Position numbers and translations under genes: made by a program
NCBI GenBank assembly: GCA_937981985.1
Contig: CALJNB010000005.1
Span: forward strand, 186,001 to 250,000
Reading direction: 5' to 3'
DNA: 64,000 bases
From: an uncultured bacterium
Lineage (GTDB): Bacteria; Myxococcota_A; Bradymonadia; Bradymonadales; Bradymonadaceae
Notes under the pieces: generated by a model
Told to the model about the DNA's origin: nothing
The model's database searches: none
Seen by the model: the letters and a program-made list of their open reading frames with translations, nothing else
Shown: in pieces, positions 7,559-13,089 of the stretch
How positions within the stretch are numbered: the stretch's first letter is position 1
Layout: each line of letters opens with the position of its first letter

Positions 7559-8555
7559 CGCCGATCGCGTGCATCCGTTTTAATGTGTTCACTTCTTCAT
7601 CAAAAGTGAAGTCGTGGGAGGGCTTTTTTGCGGCCAGCGCTCGATGAACCGTTTCCTCGACGACACGTTTTTTATCAGCGTCGGTTTTTTCGGCTCTAAT
7701 GAGGGTTGCGAGATCTTCCTCGCGATCGTCTGCAAGACACGCGCGAAGTCCTCCAGTTGGGGTGATTCGAATACGATTACAGTCATCACAAAAGCAGGAA
7801 CTCAAAGCGGAGATAAAACCAATGGGTGTTGGTGAAATAGAGTTCGAACTGAAGGTCCAATATCGCGCTGGTCCCATACCCATTTTTTTCTTTTCAGGAA
7901 CAAGATTGCCTTGTTCTGATAGCTTTTGCCGAATTTCTCCCAGCGGTACGCTTGTATCCCCCCAAACCGTTCCTAACCCAATTGGCATGAATTCAATAAA
8001 GCGAAGTATATGCTTACGTTCCGCTGCAAAAGTAACCAGATTTAGTATTTCATGGTCATTGATTCCACGGATAATGACGCTATTCAATTTGATATTTTCA
8101 AAGCCAGCGTCTTGGGCTGATTGAAGGCCATCGAGAACACGATCTAACTTCTGGTTTCGAGATATTTTCTTAAAGGTATCGGGTTCTAGAGAGTCGAAGC
8201 TTACGTTTATGTGGGTTAAACCCGCTTTTTTTAACGCGTCAGCAAATTTTGGTAGTAAAAATGCGTTTGTTGTGAGTGCTATCTCGTCTATGCCTAAGTT
8301 TCGAAACCTGCGAATTAAATCGCATATTCCTTTTCTTAAGAGGGGTTCACCTCCGGTGAGACGAATGCGTTTTAGATTATGTTTGGCAAAAACAGAAACA
8401 ATGAGTTCCAGCTCTTCGAAGGTTAGAATTTCATCACGAGGAATCCATTCCATATTTTCGTCCGGCATGCAGTAAACGCATCGGAAATTACAACGGTCTG
8501 TTAGGGAAATGCGAAGGTAGGTAATTTCGCGGTCGGAGGCGTCACGAAAAGTCAT
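7554..8555 (-). CDS. moaA: GTP 3',8-cyclase MoaA
   Basis: MoaA is the radical-SAM enzyme that starts molybdenum cofactor synthesis by converting GTP to 3',8-cyclo-GTP. The 333-residue protein has the radical-SAM cluster cysteines C22, C26 and C29, the RLTGGEPL SAM-contact motif, a second [4Fe-4S] site (C256-x2-C259-x13-C273) and the essential C-terminal Gly-Gly. No other moa or moe gene is visible nearby. Its ATG overlaps the TAA of the upstream exported-protein gene by one base, so it is probably read with the CpaF/pseudokinase cluster. Confidence 0.96.
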   Translation of the reverse strand: MTFRDASDREITYLRISLTDRCNFRCVYCMPDENMEWIPRDEILTFEELELIVSVFAKHNLKRIRLTGGEPLLRKGICDLIRRFRNLGIDEIALTTNAFLLPKFADALKKAGLTHINVSFDSLEPDTFKKISRNQKLDRVLDGLQSAQDAGFENIKLNSVIIRGINDHEILNLVTFAAERKHILRFIEFMPIGLGTVWGDTSVPLGEIRQKLSEQGNLVPEKKKMGMGPARYWTFSSNSISPTPIGFISALSSCFCDDCNRIRITPTGGLRACLADDREEDLATLIRAEKTDADKKRVVEETVHRALAAKKPSHDFTFDEEVNTLKRMHAIGG

Positions 8556-9373
8556 TACCAGAGATCGATCCCGCCACCAGATTTTTTGGCTTTCTTTGTA
8601 GTTGTTTTCTTTTTAGTCGCTTTCTTTCTAGCCGCTTTCTTTTTAGCCGCTTTTTTGGCCGATTGTTTACCGCGAAAGGCGCGCTTTACTTTTTTCTTTG
8701 GTTTCACGTTTTTGAAGGTTTCAGTGATGTAATAGATGCCAGGTGTGAGCGCTGACTTAAACGCGTATTTGGGATTGTTTGGAGCGAATATTATTTCTTC
8801 GGTTGGTGCGGGTGTATCAATGAGGAGCTCTATTCGCGATCCTGGGACGGCACTTTTGATAAAATGGGCAATGCCAAATTCGTTTGTAGTCGCGATAACT
8901 TTACCTTCGGACTTGATTTCAATCCCAACACAAGAAACATCTGAGGAGCATTTGAGCTTAATCCAGATTAAATTTTCTTGGCTTACTTTTTTGTAGCGTA
9001 CTTTTAACCTTATTCGTTCCGGCTTGGGGTCTTGGCTTTTGGGGTCATCAACGAGTAAAGGAAAGTCAGTTTCGGTGACCTGTTCTGCTTCAAGACTATA
9101 TCCATCAACTTTTCCGACTCCGAGTTTTAGGGATGCTCTGTGTCTTTCAGTGAGTATAGCTTTAAACATGCCAGCAGCACCCGTGTGGCCGGCGAGCTTT
9201 TCGTCGAAAAAAACCGGGACATTGGCGACAGGCGATCCTGTGTTGTCTTTGGTAATTACTTCAACAGGAAACTCATAAGTTTTATGTTTGTCACCGAATT
9301 CTACCGAGGAAGCGATGTTGGGGTTCAGAAAAGCCGAAGAAAGCATAAAGAATGTGAATATCAGAGTACGCAT
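8555..9373 (-). CDS. Exported protein with Lys/Ala-rich histone-H1-like tail
   Basis: A 272-residue protein of unknown function. It has a signal peptide (1 to about 22), a first beta-rich domain (about 36-110) resembling carboxypeptidase-regulatory or Ig-like repeats, a second beta domain (about 115-215) with two cysteines (143, 148), and a tail (224-265) made almost only of Lys, Ala, Arg and Thr in KKAAKKKAARKKA-type repeats, ending GGGIDLW. The start at 9373 is set by the signal peptide and a strong AAGGAGGAG ribosome site; the upstream kinase stop is one base away. The basic tail could bind DNA, phosphorylated surface polymer or an acidic partner. The function remains unassigned. Confidence 0.75.
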   Translation of the reverse strand: MRTLIFTFFMLSSAFLNPNIASSVEFGDKHKTYEFPVEVITKDNTGSPVANVPVFFDEKLAGHTGAAGMFKAILTERHRASLKLGVGKVDGYSLEAEQVTETDFPLLVDDPKSQDPKPERIRLKVRYKKVSQENLIWIKLKCSSDVSCVGIEIKSEGKVIATTNEFGIAHFIKSAVPGSRIELLIDTPAPTEEIIFAPNNPKYAFKSALTPGIYYITETFKNVKPKKKVKRAFRGKQSAKKAAKKKAARKKATKKKTTTKKAKKSGGGIDLW

Positions 9374-9374
9374 T

Positions 9375-11102
9375 CTATTTCTCCTCCTTTTTCTGTTGTT
9401 CTGAGATTGAAACAAGTCGTTCGACTTTGGCCGTTTTATTTGTGTTGAAGAAGGCAAGACCCGGTGCTTCGGGTTCGATAGCTGCATAACTCGTGTAGTT
9501 GATCCGGGCACTTCCTGATTTTCCTTTTTCGAGTGAATCAGTAATTCGTGTAAAGTAGTCCTTTCTCATTTTTATAACGTCTTTTCTTTTGCGAAGCTCT
9601 TTAATGAAAACAGTGTCCTCTTTGGTTTCGCCTGATATCAGGATGGCGCGAGTAATAGTAGATAAGGATGTCGTGTATTTCGTTTTTCTTTGACCACTGG
9701 GGAGTTTTTCGACGCCCTTTAATTCTTCTCGTGCTTCGATTCTGGCCTGTTCGACTTTTCGCTTTTCGGCTTTATCGAGCAGGCGCGGTGCAAGCCGATT
9801 GAGTGGATCGTTTTTGAGATCGACGATGACCTTTATGCGAGGATCGGGGCCCTCTTCGGGTACTTCGAAAGGTGTCGGAGCGGCGTTGGCCAGTGCGGCG
9901 GCACGTTTTGCATTAGCGCTTTGTTGTTGTTGAAAATAGAGAAGTCCGACGACGCCTATCATTAGAATCCCGACTGCCATGATTAGAAATTTGAAGTTCA
10001 GATCGGGGAGGATTCCTTTTTTCTTTTCTAAATTCTGAAAAGGTTTTAAGAATTCGGCCGCGGTGCTAAAACGTTCTCGCGGGTTTGCCGAAAGCGCGCG
10101 TTGTAAGGCTTTTCCGACGATGGGATCGACTTCCCCTGCCTTGGCAAGATCGAGCGGTAGGCCTGTAAGTGCGGCAAAAGCGATATTGGCGAGACAAAAA
10201 GTATCAGTTGAAGATGTGAGTTCTCGTTGCTCTGGCGCGTAGGTCATTTCACGTGGGCCGTAAGGTGCGAGGTTACCGCGATCTTCAAACGCTAATAAAT
10301 CGAAGGGCTCAAGCATCACACCTCCGTCTGATTTAACCCAGATCGCGTCAGGTGTGAGTCCGGCATGAATATATCCGTTACGATGGATTTCGTCTAAAGC
10401 CTCTCCCACCCCAGTAAGCCATCCAAAAACCACAACGTTGGGTTGTGGACCGTTTTGGGTAAGCACATCGGTGAGGCGATAACCCGGAGGTCTTGTGAGT
10501 TCGAGCCAAACTCCTGTGGGGGTCGCTAACATTCCGTTTAGAGAAACAAGGTTAGGGTGACGCACAACGTCGACGGCCGAAATACGTTCTCGTAAATCAT
10601 CTGGAAACGCAGCAGGGTCACCGTTCCAAACACGTTTTAGAATCACAGATTGGCCGTCTGCTTTCTGAGCGAAGATCAGGGTCGACGCCAAATTTTGTAT
10701 GGATTCGGGACCGTATTGGTAGGTTTGGGTGAGAACGGAATCGGTCAGAATTTGATTCCCCATATCCATTTGTAAGTCATTTACATTAACAAAATCGGTG
10801 GCTTCGCCTCCAAAGTCTCCGTCGTCGCTACCAAAGTTTTGTGTATTGGGCAGCGCAGGTGGAAGTGCGGGCGGTCCATTTTGCATTGCCTGAACGTTTA
10901 CGAAAGCGGTGGCTTCTTCGCCAAAGCCTTCATCAAAATCGTCGCCAATAATCATTGAACCATTTTTAGGTCTTCCTGGTCTTCGATCTATGCCGATTGC
11001 AGATGTTGGCTGATCTTCCAAAGGTAGACCCGAACCTTGTTGGCGTTGTTTGTGCTTATCGCGGAGGTTTTTTCTCGCTTGTTTGAATCTATCATCAGAC
11101 AT
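9375..11102 (-). CDS. Membrane-anchored protein kinase-like protein (predicted pseudokinase)
   Basis: A 575-residue protein: a polar N-terminus with two near-copies of an FG-x-EAT-x-FVNV motif (residues 59-70 and 96-107), a kinase-like domain (about 130-355), a membrane helix (372-390) and a charged, helical extracytoplasmic C-terminus. The ATP-site Lys is kept (K156), and so is the APE-like YAPEQ. The catalytic loop HRDLKPxN has become HAGLTPDA (246-253) and DFG has become PFD (266-268), so phosphotransfer is not expected. It lies between a CpaF-type ATPase and an exported Lys-rich protein on one strand, which suggests a structural or scaffolding role. Confidence 0.8.
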   Translation of the reverse strand: MSDDRFKQARKNLRDKHKQRQQGSGLPLEDQPTSAIGIDRRPGRPKNGSMIIGDDFDEGFGEEATAFVNVQAMQNGPPALPPALPNTQNFGSDDGDFGGEATDFVNVNDLQMDMGNQILTDSVLTQTYQYGPESIQNLASTLIFAQKADGQSVILKRVWNGDPAAFPDDLRERISAVDVVRHPNLVSLNGMLATPTGVWLELTRPPGYRLTDVLTQNGPQPNVVVFGWLTGVGEALDEIHRNGYIHAGLTPDAIWVKSDGGVMLEPFDLLAFEDRGNLAPYGPREMTYAPEQRELTSSTDTFCLANIAFAALTGLPLDLAKAGEVDPIVGKALQRALSANPRERFSTAAEFLKPFQNLEKKKGILPDLNFKFLIMAVGILMIGVVGLLYFQQQQSANAKRAAALANAAPTPFEVPEEGPDPRIKVIVDLKNDPLNRLAPRLLDKAEKRKVEQARIEAREELKGVEKLPSGQRKTKYTTSLSTITRAILISGETKEDTVFIKELRKRKDVIKMRKDYFTRITDSLEKGKSGSARINYTSYAAIEPEAPGLAFFNTNKTAKVERLVSISEQQKKEEK

Positions 11103-11125
11103 ATTAAGTTCTTAAATATTTTTAG

Positions 11126-12229
11126 TTAAAGGGGGCGAAACCAACTTTCGTCGACATGAAGATTACGAGAACGAGCGTTGTCCAGAAAGGTAGGAAGGTT
11201 TCCGACTGCCTTTAGCTCTCCCATAACTTTTCCCGTTTTTGGATCCTGACCTTGGTGTTTAAACTCGAAAAGAGGATGGATAACATACTCACCGGCCTGA
11301 TCTAGACCTAAACATTCCACGATGTGGGTCAGTTTTCTACTTCCATCGTTAAAGCGTGCCGTCTGAATGATAATATTGATTGCCGATGCAACCTGACTTC
11401 GGAGTGCTGCGAGTGGCATTTTGACTTCTGACATCATCGCCATCGTTTCTAGTCGGCGGAGCGTATCATCGGGATAGGTGGCGTGCGTTGTGGACATCGA
11501 CCCACCGTGACCTGAGGTCATTGCCTGAATAAGGTCGAGTGCTTCTCCCCCGCGAATTTCTCCAATAACAATTCTATCTGGACGAAGACGCATAGCTGAC
11601 CTGAAGAGATCTCCGATTTCAACTTTTCCACGTCCCTTGGCATCCGGTCCGCGTGCTTCCAGCATAACGACATGGGGCTGTTGGAGCTGGAGCTCTGTTG
11701 AATCCTCAATGACGATGATGCGTTCTTTGGGATCGATAAGTGTAGAAACACAGTTGAGAAGTGAGGTCTTTCCTGAGCCTGTTCCGCCGGCAACGATAAC
11801 GTTTTGTTCCATGTGAACGCATAGGTTAATGAATTCAGCTGCTTGCGCAGTGATCGATCCGTAACCCATTAGCTTTTCCATTGTTAAGGAAAATTCGCCG
11901 AACCGTCGAATGGCGACTGAAACACCGTTTCGGGCGCATGGTGGAAGGACCACGTGTACACGCGAACCATCGGGTAGTCTTGCATCCATGCGTGGGTTTA
12001 AGTCATTTAACGTTTTTCCAACATATTGGGCGATATTTTTCACACCCCCCATTAAATCATCCGCGTTTTCGAATTTTGCGTTGGTTTGTTGGAGTTTCCC
12101 GGCAACTTCGATCCAAATATCATTCGGACCGTTTATCATGATCTCACTTACAGATTCATCGTCCATAAAGGGCGCGACGCACTTAAAATATCTTTTGATA
12201 GATTGTTCAAAGATAATCTTTGGTATCAT
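11126..12229 (-). CDS. cpaF: CpaF/TadA-type secretion ATPase
   Basis: A 367-residue hexameric secretion ATPase of the type II/IV superfamily, normally the motor of Tad pilus assembly at the inner membrane. It has the N-terminal SEIMINGPNDIW segment typical of CpaF, Walker A GGTGSGKTS at 148-156, the Asp box IVIEDSTELQL, a Walker B region ending in E224 (RIVIGEIRGGEAL), and the His box MSTTHA. No TadB/TadC platform, pilin or secretin gene is in view. It leads a same-strand run with the pseudokinase, which begins 23 bases downstream. Its catalytic motifs look intact. Confidence 0.92.
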   Translation of the reverse strand: MIPKIIFEQSIKRYFKCVAPFMDDESVSEIMINGPNDIWIEVAGKLQQTNAKFENADDLMGGVKNIAQYVGKTLNDLNPRMDARLPDGSRVHVVLPPCARNGVSVAIRRFGEFSLTMEKLMGYGSITAQAAEFINLCVHMEQNVIVAGGTGSGKTSLLNCVSTLIDPKERIIVIEDSTELQLQQPHVVMLEARGPDAKGRGKVEIGDLFRSAMRLRPDRIVIGEIRGGEALDLIQAMTSGHGGSMSTTHATYPDDTLRRLETMAMMSEVKMPLAALRSQVASAINIIIQTARFNDGSRKLTHIVECLGLDQAGEYVIHPLFEFKHQGQDPKTGKVMGELKAVGNLPTFLDNARSRNLHVDESWFRPL

Positions 12230-12354: not shown

Positions 12355-13089
12355 ATGATATCCAGTTCGAGAACTGACGACTTTCGAGGAATTTTGAAAA
12401 AAGTATCCCTTTTAACCCTAATCGCAATCGCAGCTGCTATCACATCAACCATAGCTATGGTTTTGGTGTTTTTTCACGCACCTGTAGAATTAACGATGGG
12501 CGTGGTTCAGAAAATCTTTTACGTCCACGTACCCGCTGCTATGCTTATGTATGCCGGATTTGTGATCTGCAGTGCCGCCAGCCTTTTTTACCTTCTTAAG
12601 CCTAAAAAGACTTGGGACACAATCGCCGTGATCGGGGTCGAGATAGGTCTTCTTTTTGGAATCTACGTTATGATCTCGGGCCCCTTATGGGGATATAAAG
12701 CCTGGGGTAAAGCGTGGGTATTTGATCCGCAATTAACGACTGCCCTTATCCTGTTCTTGATGTATGGGGGTTACGCGCTACTTAGGCTCTTTTCGGGTTC
12801 AAGTCGGAAAATCCGTCAAATTGCGGCCGTTTTTGCTGTGATTTCTTCGACTATGATTCCCGTCGTTCACTGGGCCGTTAAAGTTTGGGGTGGAATACAT
12901 CCAACCGTTGAGCGCGAAGGTGGGGACGGTATGCACCCTGATATCGCGCTTGCTTTTGGAATGTCGATGTTGGGATTTTTGATTCTTTCGATGGCAATTT
13001 TTTGGGCTCAAGTTGCAATAAAACGTGAATCCGAAAAATTAGAGTCCCTTTTTATTGATTTAGAAGATTATCTGAAGAGTAATGTATGA
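12355..13089 (+). CDS. ccmC: Cytochrome c biogenesis heme transporter CcmC
   Basis: CcmC loads heme onto CcmE at the periplasmic face in system I cytochrome c maturation. The 244-residue protein has six hydrophobic segments, a Trp-rich loop (WGYKAWGKAWVFDPQLT) corresponding to the WWD domain, and flanking histidines in FYVHVPAA and VHWAVKVWGGIHP. The ATG start at 12355 lacks a clear ribosome site; a TTG at 12394 is an alternative. Its stop overlaps the ccmD start (ATGA). ccmA, ccmB, ccmE and ccmF are not in this window; upstream lies the divergent cpaF gene. Confidence 0.92.
   Translation: MISSSRTDDFRGILKKVSLLTLIAIAAAITSTIAMVLVFFHAPVELTMGVVQKIFYVHVPAAMLMYAGFVICSAASLFYLLKPKKTWDTIAVIGVEIGLLFGIYVMISGPLWGYKAWGKAWVFDPQLTTALILFLMYGGYALLRLFSGSSRKIRQIAAVFAVISSTMIPVVHWAVKVWGGIHPTVEREGGDGMHPDIALAFGMSMLGFLILSMAIFWAQVAIKRESEKLESLFIDLEDYLKSNV

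Follow-up and report, generated by a model that had tools for sequence, protein, structure and literature searches.

Three adjacent genes on the reverse strand of the window, by which we mean the whole 64,000-nucleotide stretch analysed here, encode a CpaF-type ATPase (CpaF2), a bitopic pseudokinase and an exported protein (Table 1), and we refer to them together as the block. The first-pass annotation had read a motor ATPase, a membrane pseudokinase and a secreted Lys-tailed protein as following one another on the same strand, which is confirmed, and the three share an operon. The start of moaA, the next gene, overlaps the stop of the exported-protein gene by one base (TAATG), so that cpaF, pseudokinase, exported protein and moaA are probably one transcription unit; moaA also adjoins the block in four relatives (G001, G004, G008 and G011). 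The exported protein had been given as 318 aa from a GTG start (8555–9511), a frame that overlaps the kinase gene. The ATG at 9373, directly past the kinase stop codon and preceded by AAAGGAGGAGAAATAGA, a good ribosome-binding site, is the real start and gives a protein of 272 aa. No TadB/TadC-type match occurs anywhere in the window, in keeping with the first reading, and the lack of a pilin or secretin there also holds, as judged by reading the ORFs rather than by HMM.

Table 1. The block and its immediate neighbours in the window.
Feature	Position	Strand	Description
CpaF2	11126..12229	(-)	367 aa; plain CpaF/TadA-type motor ATPase; FHA domain absent; Walker A intact
Bitopic pseudokinase	9375..11102	(-)	575 aa; kinase-like membrane protein
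Exported protein	8555..9373	(-)	272 aa; signal peptide, two Ig/CnaB-like domains, Lys-rich tail ending IDLW
moaA	7554..8555	(-)	Fourth operon gene; Pfam Radical_SAM and Mob_synth_C; outside the Tad module
ccmC	12355..13089	(+)	Pfam Cytochrom_C_asm; divergent neighbour of cpaF

Products of the three genes

That the motor is complete is borne out by a Pfam T2SSE match (E=2.6e-52) and a Walker A motif that reads GGTGSGKT in the alignment. The best NCBIfam family is the TadA-family model TIGR03819, at a score below its strict cut-off, and the protein is nearer CpaF than PilB or GspE, all of which places it among the CpaF/TadA motors.

The second protein has a disordered N-terminal tail, a pseudokinase domain (about 115–355), a transmembrane helix (about 366–390) and a C-terminal helical domain (about 444–542). 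Its Pkinase match scores 30.1 bits, just below the cut-off of 31.7, and its AlphaFold2 model contains a kinase fold, a long low-confidence (TM) helix and the C-terminal helical domain, with PknA, PknB and Stk1 as Foldseek matches. In all 19–20 family orthologues that span the sites, the HRD Asp is lost (HAGL/YANL) and EPFD stands in place of DFG; the strand-3 Lys is retained across the family, with Arg in three. With a kinase fold from which the catalytic Asp residues are gone, the protein is a Hanks-type pseudokinase. Its N-terminal tail carries the Thr motifs EATAFVNV and EATDFVNV, and across 20 pseudokinase tails the pattern T-[QARM]-hydrophobic-hydrophobic-[DNES], defined after inspection of the tails, occurs 60 times against 0.24 expected from shuffles, an enrichment of about 250-fold. 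An acidic residue before the Thr and hydrophobic residues after it resemble known sites of bacterial Ser/Thr kinases and FHA domains.

The same position downstream of CpaF2 is occupied differently elsewhere. In G032, which belongs to a different family, CpaF2 is followed by a kinase gene (L074:3111-4688) whose product keeps HRD and DFD and is possibly active, and the pseudokinase of the Bradymonadales family may thus have evolved from a working kinase. At this place several other Myxococcota encode a membrane protein of a different kind, with comparable Thr motifs, in which Pfam detected no FHA domain; a C-terminal domain common to this protein and the pseudokinase was considered and dropped, as hhalign returned only 34 columns at 7.5% probability.

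In the AlphaFold2 model of the exported protein, two Ig/CnaB-like domains are joined to a disordered tail, and Foldseek gives weak matches, at the level of individual domains, to surface proteins and pilins. Most relatives carry a lipobox Cys in the ortholog alignment, and the protein is thus a lipoprotein there. Their tails are rich in Arg, Pro and Gln, the Lys version being only one form of linker, and for this reason a histone-like or nucleic-acid-binding role was rejected. Beyond the variable low-complexity linker, a short hydrophobic C-terminal end (IDLW, INLW, IPLF) is conserved in the Bradymonadales.

The block and the Tad loci of its relatives

Bradymonadales are contact-dependent predators (PMC11509652), and the family of the window genome includes Lujinxingia vulgaris (L068), from whose established placement the order is assigned. 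Of the 21 family genomes compared, which are mostly MAGs, 20 carry the block, the exception being G003; the pseudokinase was found in every family genome searched but that one. The order CpaF, pseudokinase, exported protein is held wherever family contigs allow, with ccmC divergent upstream and adjoining the block CpaF in nearly all genomes whose contig extends there. The block CpaFs are 66–90% identical to that of the window across the family, and identity of the pseudokinase and the exported protein drops to 25–40% outside the genus. As part of a conserved three-gene unit, the pseudokinase is a plausible regulator, as had been suggested.

Nineteen of the 20 block carriers also hold a Tad locus of the type described for Kil, the Tad-like contact-dependent killing apparatus of Myxococcus xanthus (PMC8460266, PMC12075869), and the lone exception is the MAG of the window itself. 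These loci encode CpaB, a secretin, an FHA-fused CpaF, TadB, TadC, an FHA protein and a TPR lipoprotein, with Pfam matches to RcpC, Secretin, FHA+T2SSE, two T2SSF, FHA and TPR; a Flp-like pilin (in most loci read), a glycosyltransferase-like membrane protein and then ccmB and ccmA complete them. The pilin was placed by position, with a weak Flp_Fap match below cut-off in one of two loci tested, that of a same-genus sister. The FHA-CpaF, in which FHA and T2SSE are joined in one protein of about 620 aa, is encoded separately from the block and beside the two T2SSF proteins, is 53% identical to the FHA-CpaF of M. xanthus (KilF) and retains the GR...SRRH signature of FHA domains. Block and FHA-CpaF share a contig in at least seven genomes (G004, G005, G009, G011, G012, G013 and G016), with ccm genes in the intervening stretch wherever this was read; in the complete genome G008 the block and Tad lie 2.8 Mb apart. 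In G003, where the order is obgE, ccmD, ccmC, moaA, ccmF, ccmH-like, ccmA, ccmB, both block and Tad are gone and the flanking HD-domain and NmrA-like genes are kept. Its congener G015 retains both, and G003 is a paired loss of block and Tad in which the ccm genes were spared.

The genome of the window (G000, in which the window is C5:186001-250000) is a 4.09-Mb MAG of 146 contigs, 84.8% complete, in which we found no FHA-CpaF, TadB or TadC, nor ccmB or ccmF, though ccmC lies in the window. In the sister genome G001 the Tad locus, ccmB, ccmA and ccmF sit on one contig (C325), and the N-terminal half of the FHA-CpaF ends the neighbouring contig C324. Because the genes that neighbour Tad in G001 are missing as well, a missing contig is likelier than loss of Tad, and one unbinned region would explain all of these absences. 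For the glycosyltransferase gene beside Tad in G001, G000 yields only a 27% match in an unrelated neighbourhood; the flanking gene L157:3465-3803 has no match in G000, an uninformative result. The finding named at first pass as refuting an independent system, a CpaF that works for a Tad locus at another site, holds for the relatives; the window's own incomplete MAG yields no TadB or TadC. G000 also encodes, on contig C28, a third CpaF-like protein (L063:11462-13372), in which FHA is fused to a T2SSE domain whose Walker A is degraded (GPKNSGRT); the next gene encodes a membrane protein with two FHA domains (L063:10709-11461). Relatives of the CpaF-like protein in the family and the class keep or lose the Walker Lys and have an altered Walker B; it is possibly a pseudo-ATPase regulator.

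CpaF2 beyond the family

Scanning the named genomes yielded 80 relatives of CpaF. In 15 named Myxococcota loci, one of them truncated ahead of CpaB and the secretin, CpaF2 is encoded in the same direction as, and downstream of, CpaB, secretin, FHA-CpaF, TadB and TadC, mostly directly after the TPR gene. Sampling of the phylum gave 34 genomes outside the family that have CpaF2; every one of them has a second CpaF, which in 28 is on the same contig at a gap of 2.95–5.2 kb. For the presence counts, plain CpaF2 and KilF were split at bit-score thresholds of about 337–345 and 440, picked after the score gap had been seen. Among 113 genomes, 28 have both KilF and CpaF2, five KilF only, one CpaF2 only (the window's) and 79 neither; G012, whose contig breaks off within the block, was scored as a carrier. 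The Fisher p of about 2e-20 for this co-occurrence ignores relatedness and is descriptive only. Since five KilF-type genomes lack CpaF2 at the thresholds chosen, CpaF2 is not obligatory for such systems.

In a CpaF tree, a quick one with some long branches, the plain CpaF2s form a clade (SH-aLRT 100) separate from the FHA-CpaF group. Within it the Bradymonadales block CpaFs (support 100) are sister to the CpaF2s of Tad operons (support 80), and the unlinked CpaFs of Myxococcus, Archangium and Bdellovibrio relatives fall elsewhere. KilF and a plain CpaF2 occur together in ten of ten named genomes, including M. xanthus, which has exactly one of each at the threshold used. The plain CpaF of M. 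xanthus AM003 (L099:9989-11446) is unlinked to its FHA-CpaF and 52% identical to that of the window. Downstream of the plain CpaF, related myxobacteria encode a secreted protein, a lipoprotein and a Ser/Thr kinase.

The relatives' loci share with Kil of M. xanthus the FHA-fused CpaF, secretin, CpaB, TadB/C-type platform and many FHA proteins, and the Kil authors themselves report the system in Bradymonadales and Bdellovibrionales (PMC8460266, PMC12075869). Kil as published, however, has a single ATPase alongside its many FHA proteins (PMC8460266), whereas here a plain CpaF, a pseudokinase and an Ig-domain envelope protein are conserved companions, and the named genomes and the family alike carry two CpaF paralogues. 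Tad pili in general are regarded as single-motor (PMC12019362); the Caulobacter Tad pilus (PMC12019362, PMC11300603) has the same motor ATPase family and a TadB/TadC platform but one bifunctional CpaF, in place of the two paralogues, one of them FHA-fused, found here. The literature we searched contained no two-CpaF Tad system.

Proposed role of the block

The block very probably belongs to the Tad/Kil system. It is likely, in our view, that it serves a Kil-type Tad (type IVc) pilus as an accessory module encoded apart from the main locus, with CpaF2 as a second motor and the pseudokinase as a scaffold. CpaF2 would then form a second hexameric motor and share the TadB/TadC platform with KilF, one motor extending the pilus and the other retracting or resetting it. 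We would favour retraction as the task of CpaF2, whether dedicated or auxiliary; that it retracts the pilus is a guess, and one somewhat less likely to be right than wrong. The pseudokinase would serve as a membrane scaffold: after a separate kinase has phosphorylated the Thr motifs of its cytoplasmic tail, the tail could dock the FHA domains of KilF and of the FHA protein encoded nearby. Engagement of the motor would in this way follow contact sensed in the envelope, where the Ig-domain (lipo)protein may be the partner. The window genome would have, or have had, a Tad core.

For this phospho-docking scaffold the nearest working analogue is EssB/YukC of type VIIb secretion (PMC9600267), which likewise has a cytoplasmic pseudokinase, one TM and an extracytoplasmic domain, and whose partner ATPase carries FHA domains that YukC binds. 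It belongs to another machine, the Thr-motif tail is a feature of the block pseudokinase, and the likeness is one of architecture and kinase fold only. PilT/PilU of type IVa pili offer a possible parallel for a second motor beside the assembly motor, albeit from other ATPase families.

Several observations weigh against CpaF2 as second motor: its absence from five KilF-type genomes at the chosen thresholds, the distance between block and Tad in G008, the single bifunctional CpaF on which Caulobacter Tad pili run (PMC12019362) and the abolition of M. xanthus pili by kilF deletion alone (PMC12075869). The Thr motif, moreover, was defined post hoc, and a Tad core was not found in the window's own genome. 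The last point, together with the intact reading frames of the block, would suit a true loss of the Tad core in that genome, the block being a relic or repurposed. We think this unlikely, as the MAG is incomplete and also lacks ccmB and ccmF, and the sole confirmed loss of Tad, in G003, removed the block too. Alternatively CpaF2 might power a different platform, such as type IVa pili, or have a solo role, and be only co-located with Tad, as its unlinked position in M. xanthus and Bdellovibrio relatives and the further T2SSF platforms in the genome would allow; given the linkage in 28 of 34 non-family genomes, the paired loss and the affiliation of CpaF2 with CpaF and not with the PilB, PilT or GspE families, this is distinctly improbable.

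The first-pass annotation had suggested a free-standing mini-system for secretion or assembly with the Lys-rich protein as client, a reading in accord with the single operon and conserved gene order. The block has no platform protein, however, relatives have a complete Kil-type Tad locus and 19 of 20 carriers a Tad locus, CpaF2 lies inside Tad operons elsewhere, and the supposed client has its own Sec or lipoprotein signal and an unconserved Lys tail; its role as client is unsupported, and such a system now seems very unlikely. A role in cytochrome c maturation, suggested by the position of the block between ccmC and ccmF/ccmAB and by the conservation of these neighbours across the family, is scarcely credible when ccm is retained without the block in G003 and CpaF2 stands within Tad operons outside the family.

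The second-motor reading can be extended, more doubtfully, to two-motor Tad pili across predatory Myxococcota and Bdellovibrionota, in which KilF would extend, an often unlinked CpaF2 would retract and a phosphothreonine/FHA switch would pick the motor at prey contact. If this were true, M. xanthus would have an overlooked second Kil motor outside the kil clusters, and the switch would be carried by the dead kinase or, in other lineages, by a different membrane protein. The locus also carries a caution: where an assembly is incomplete, an 'orphan' CpaF can turn out to be one half of a Tad system that has been displaced from the other. The analysis names candidate genes for deletion in tractable predators, and the conserved second CpaF, dead kinase and Thr motifs together are a concrete candidate for the means by which contact may switch a killing pilus on and off.
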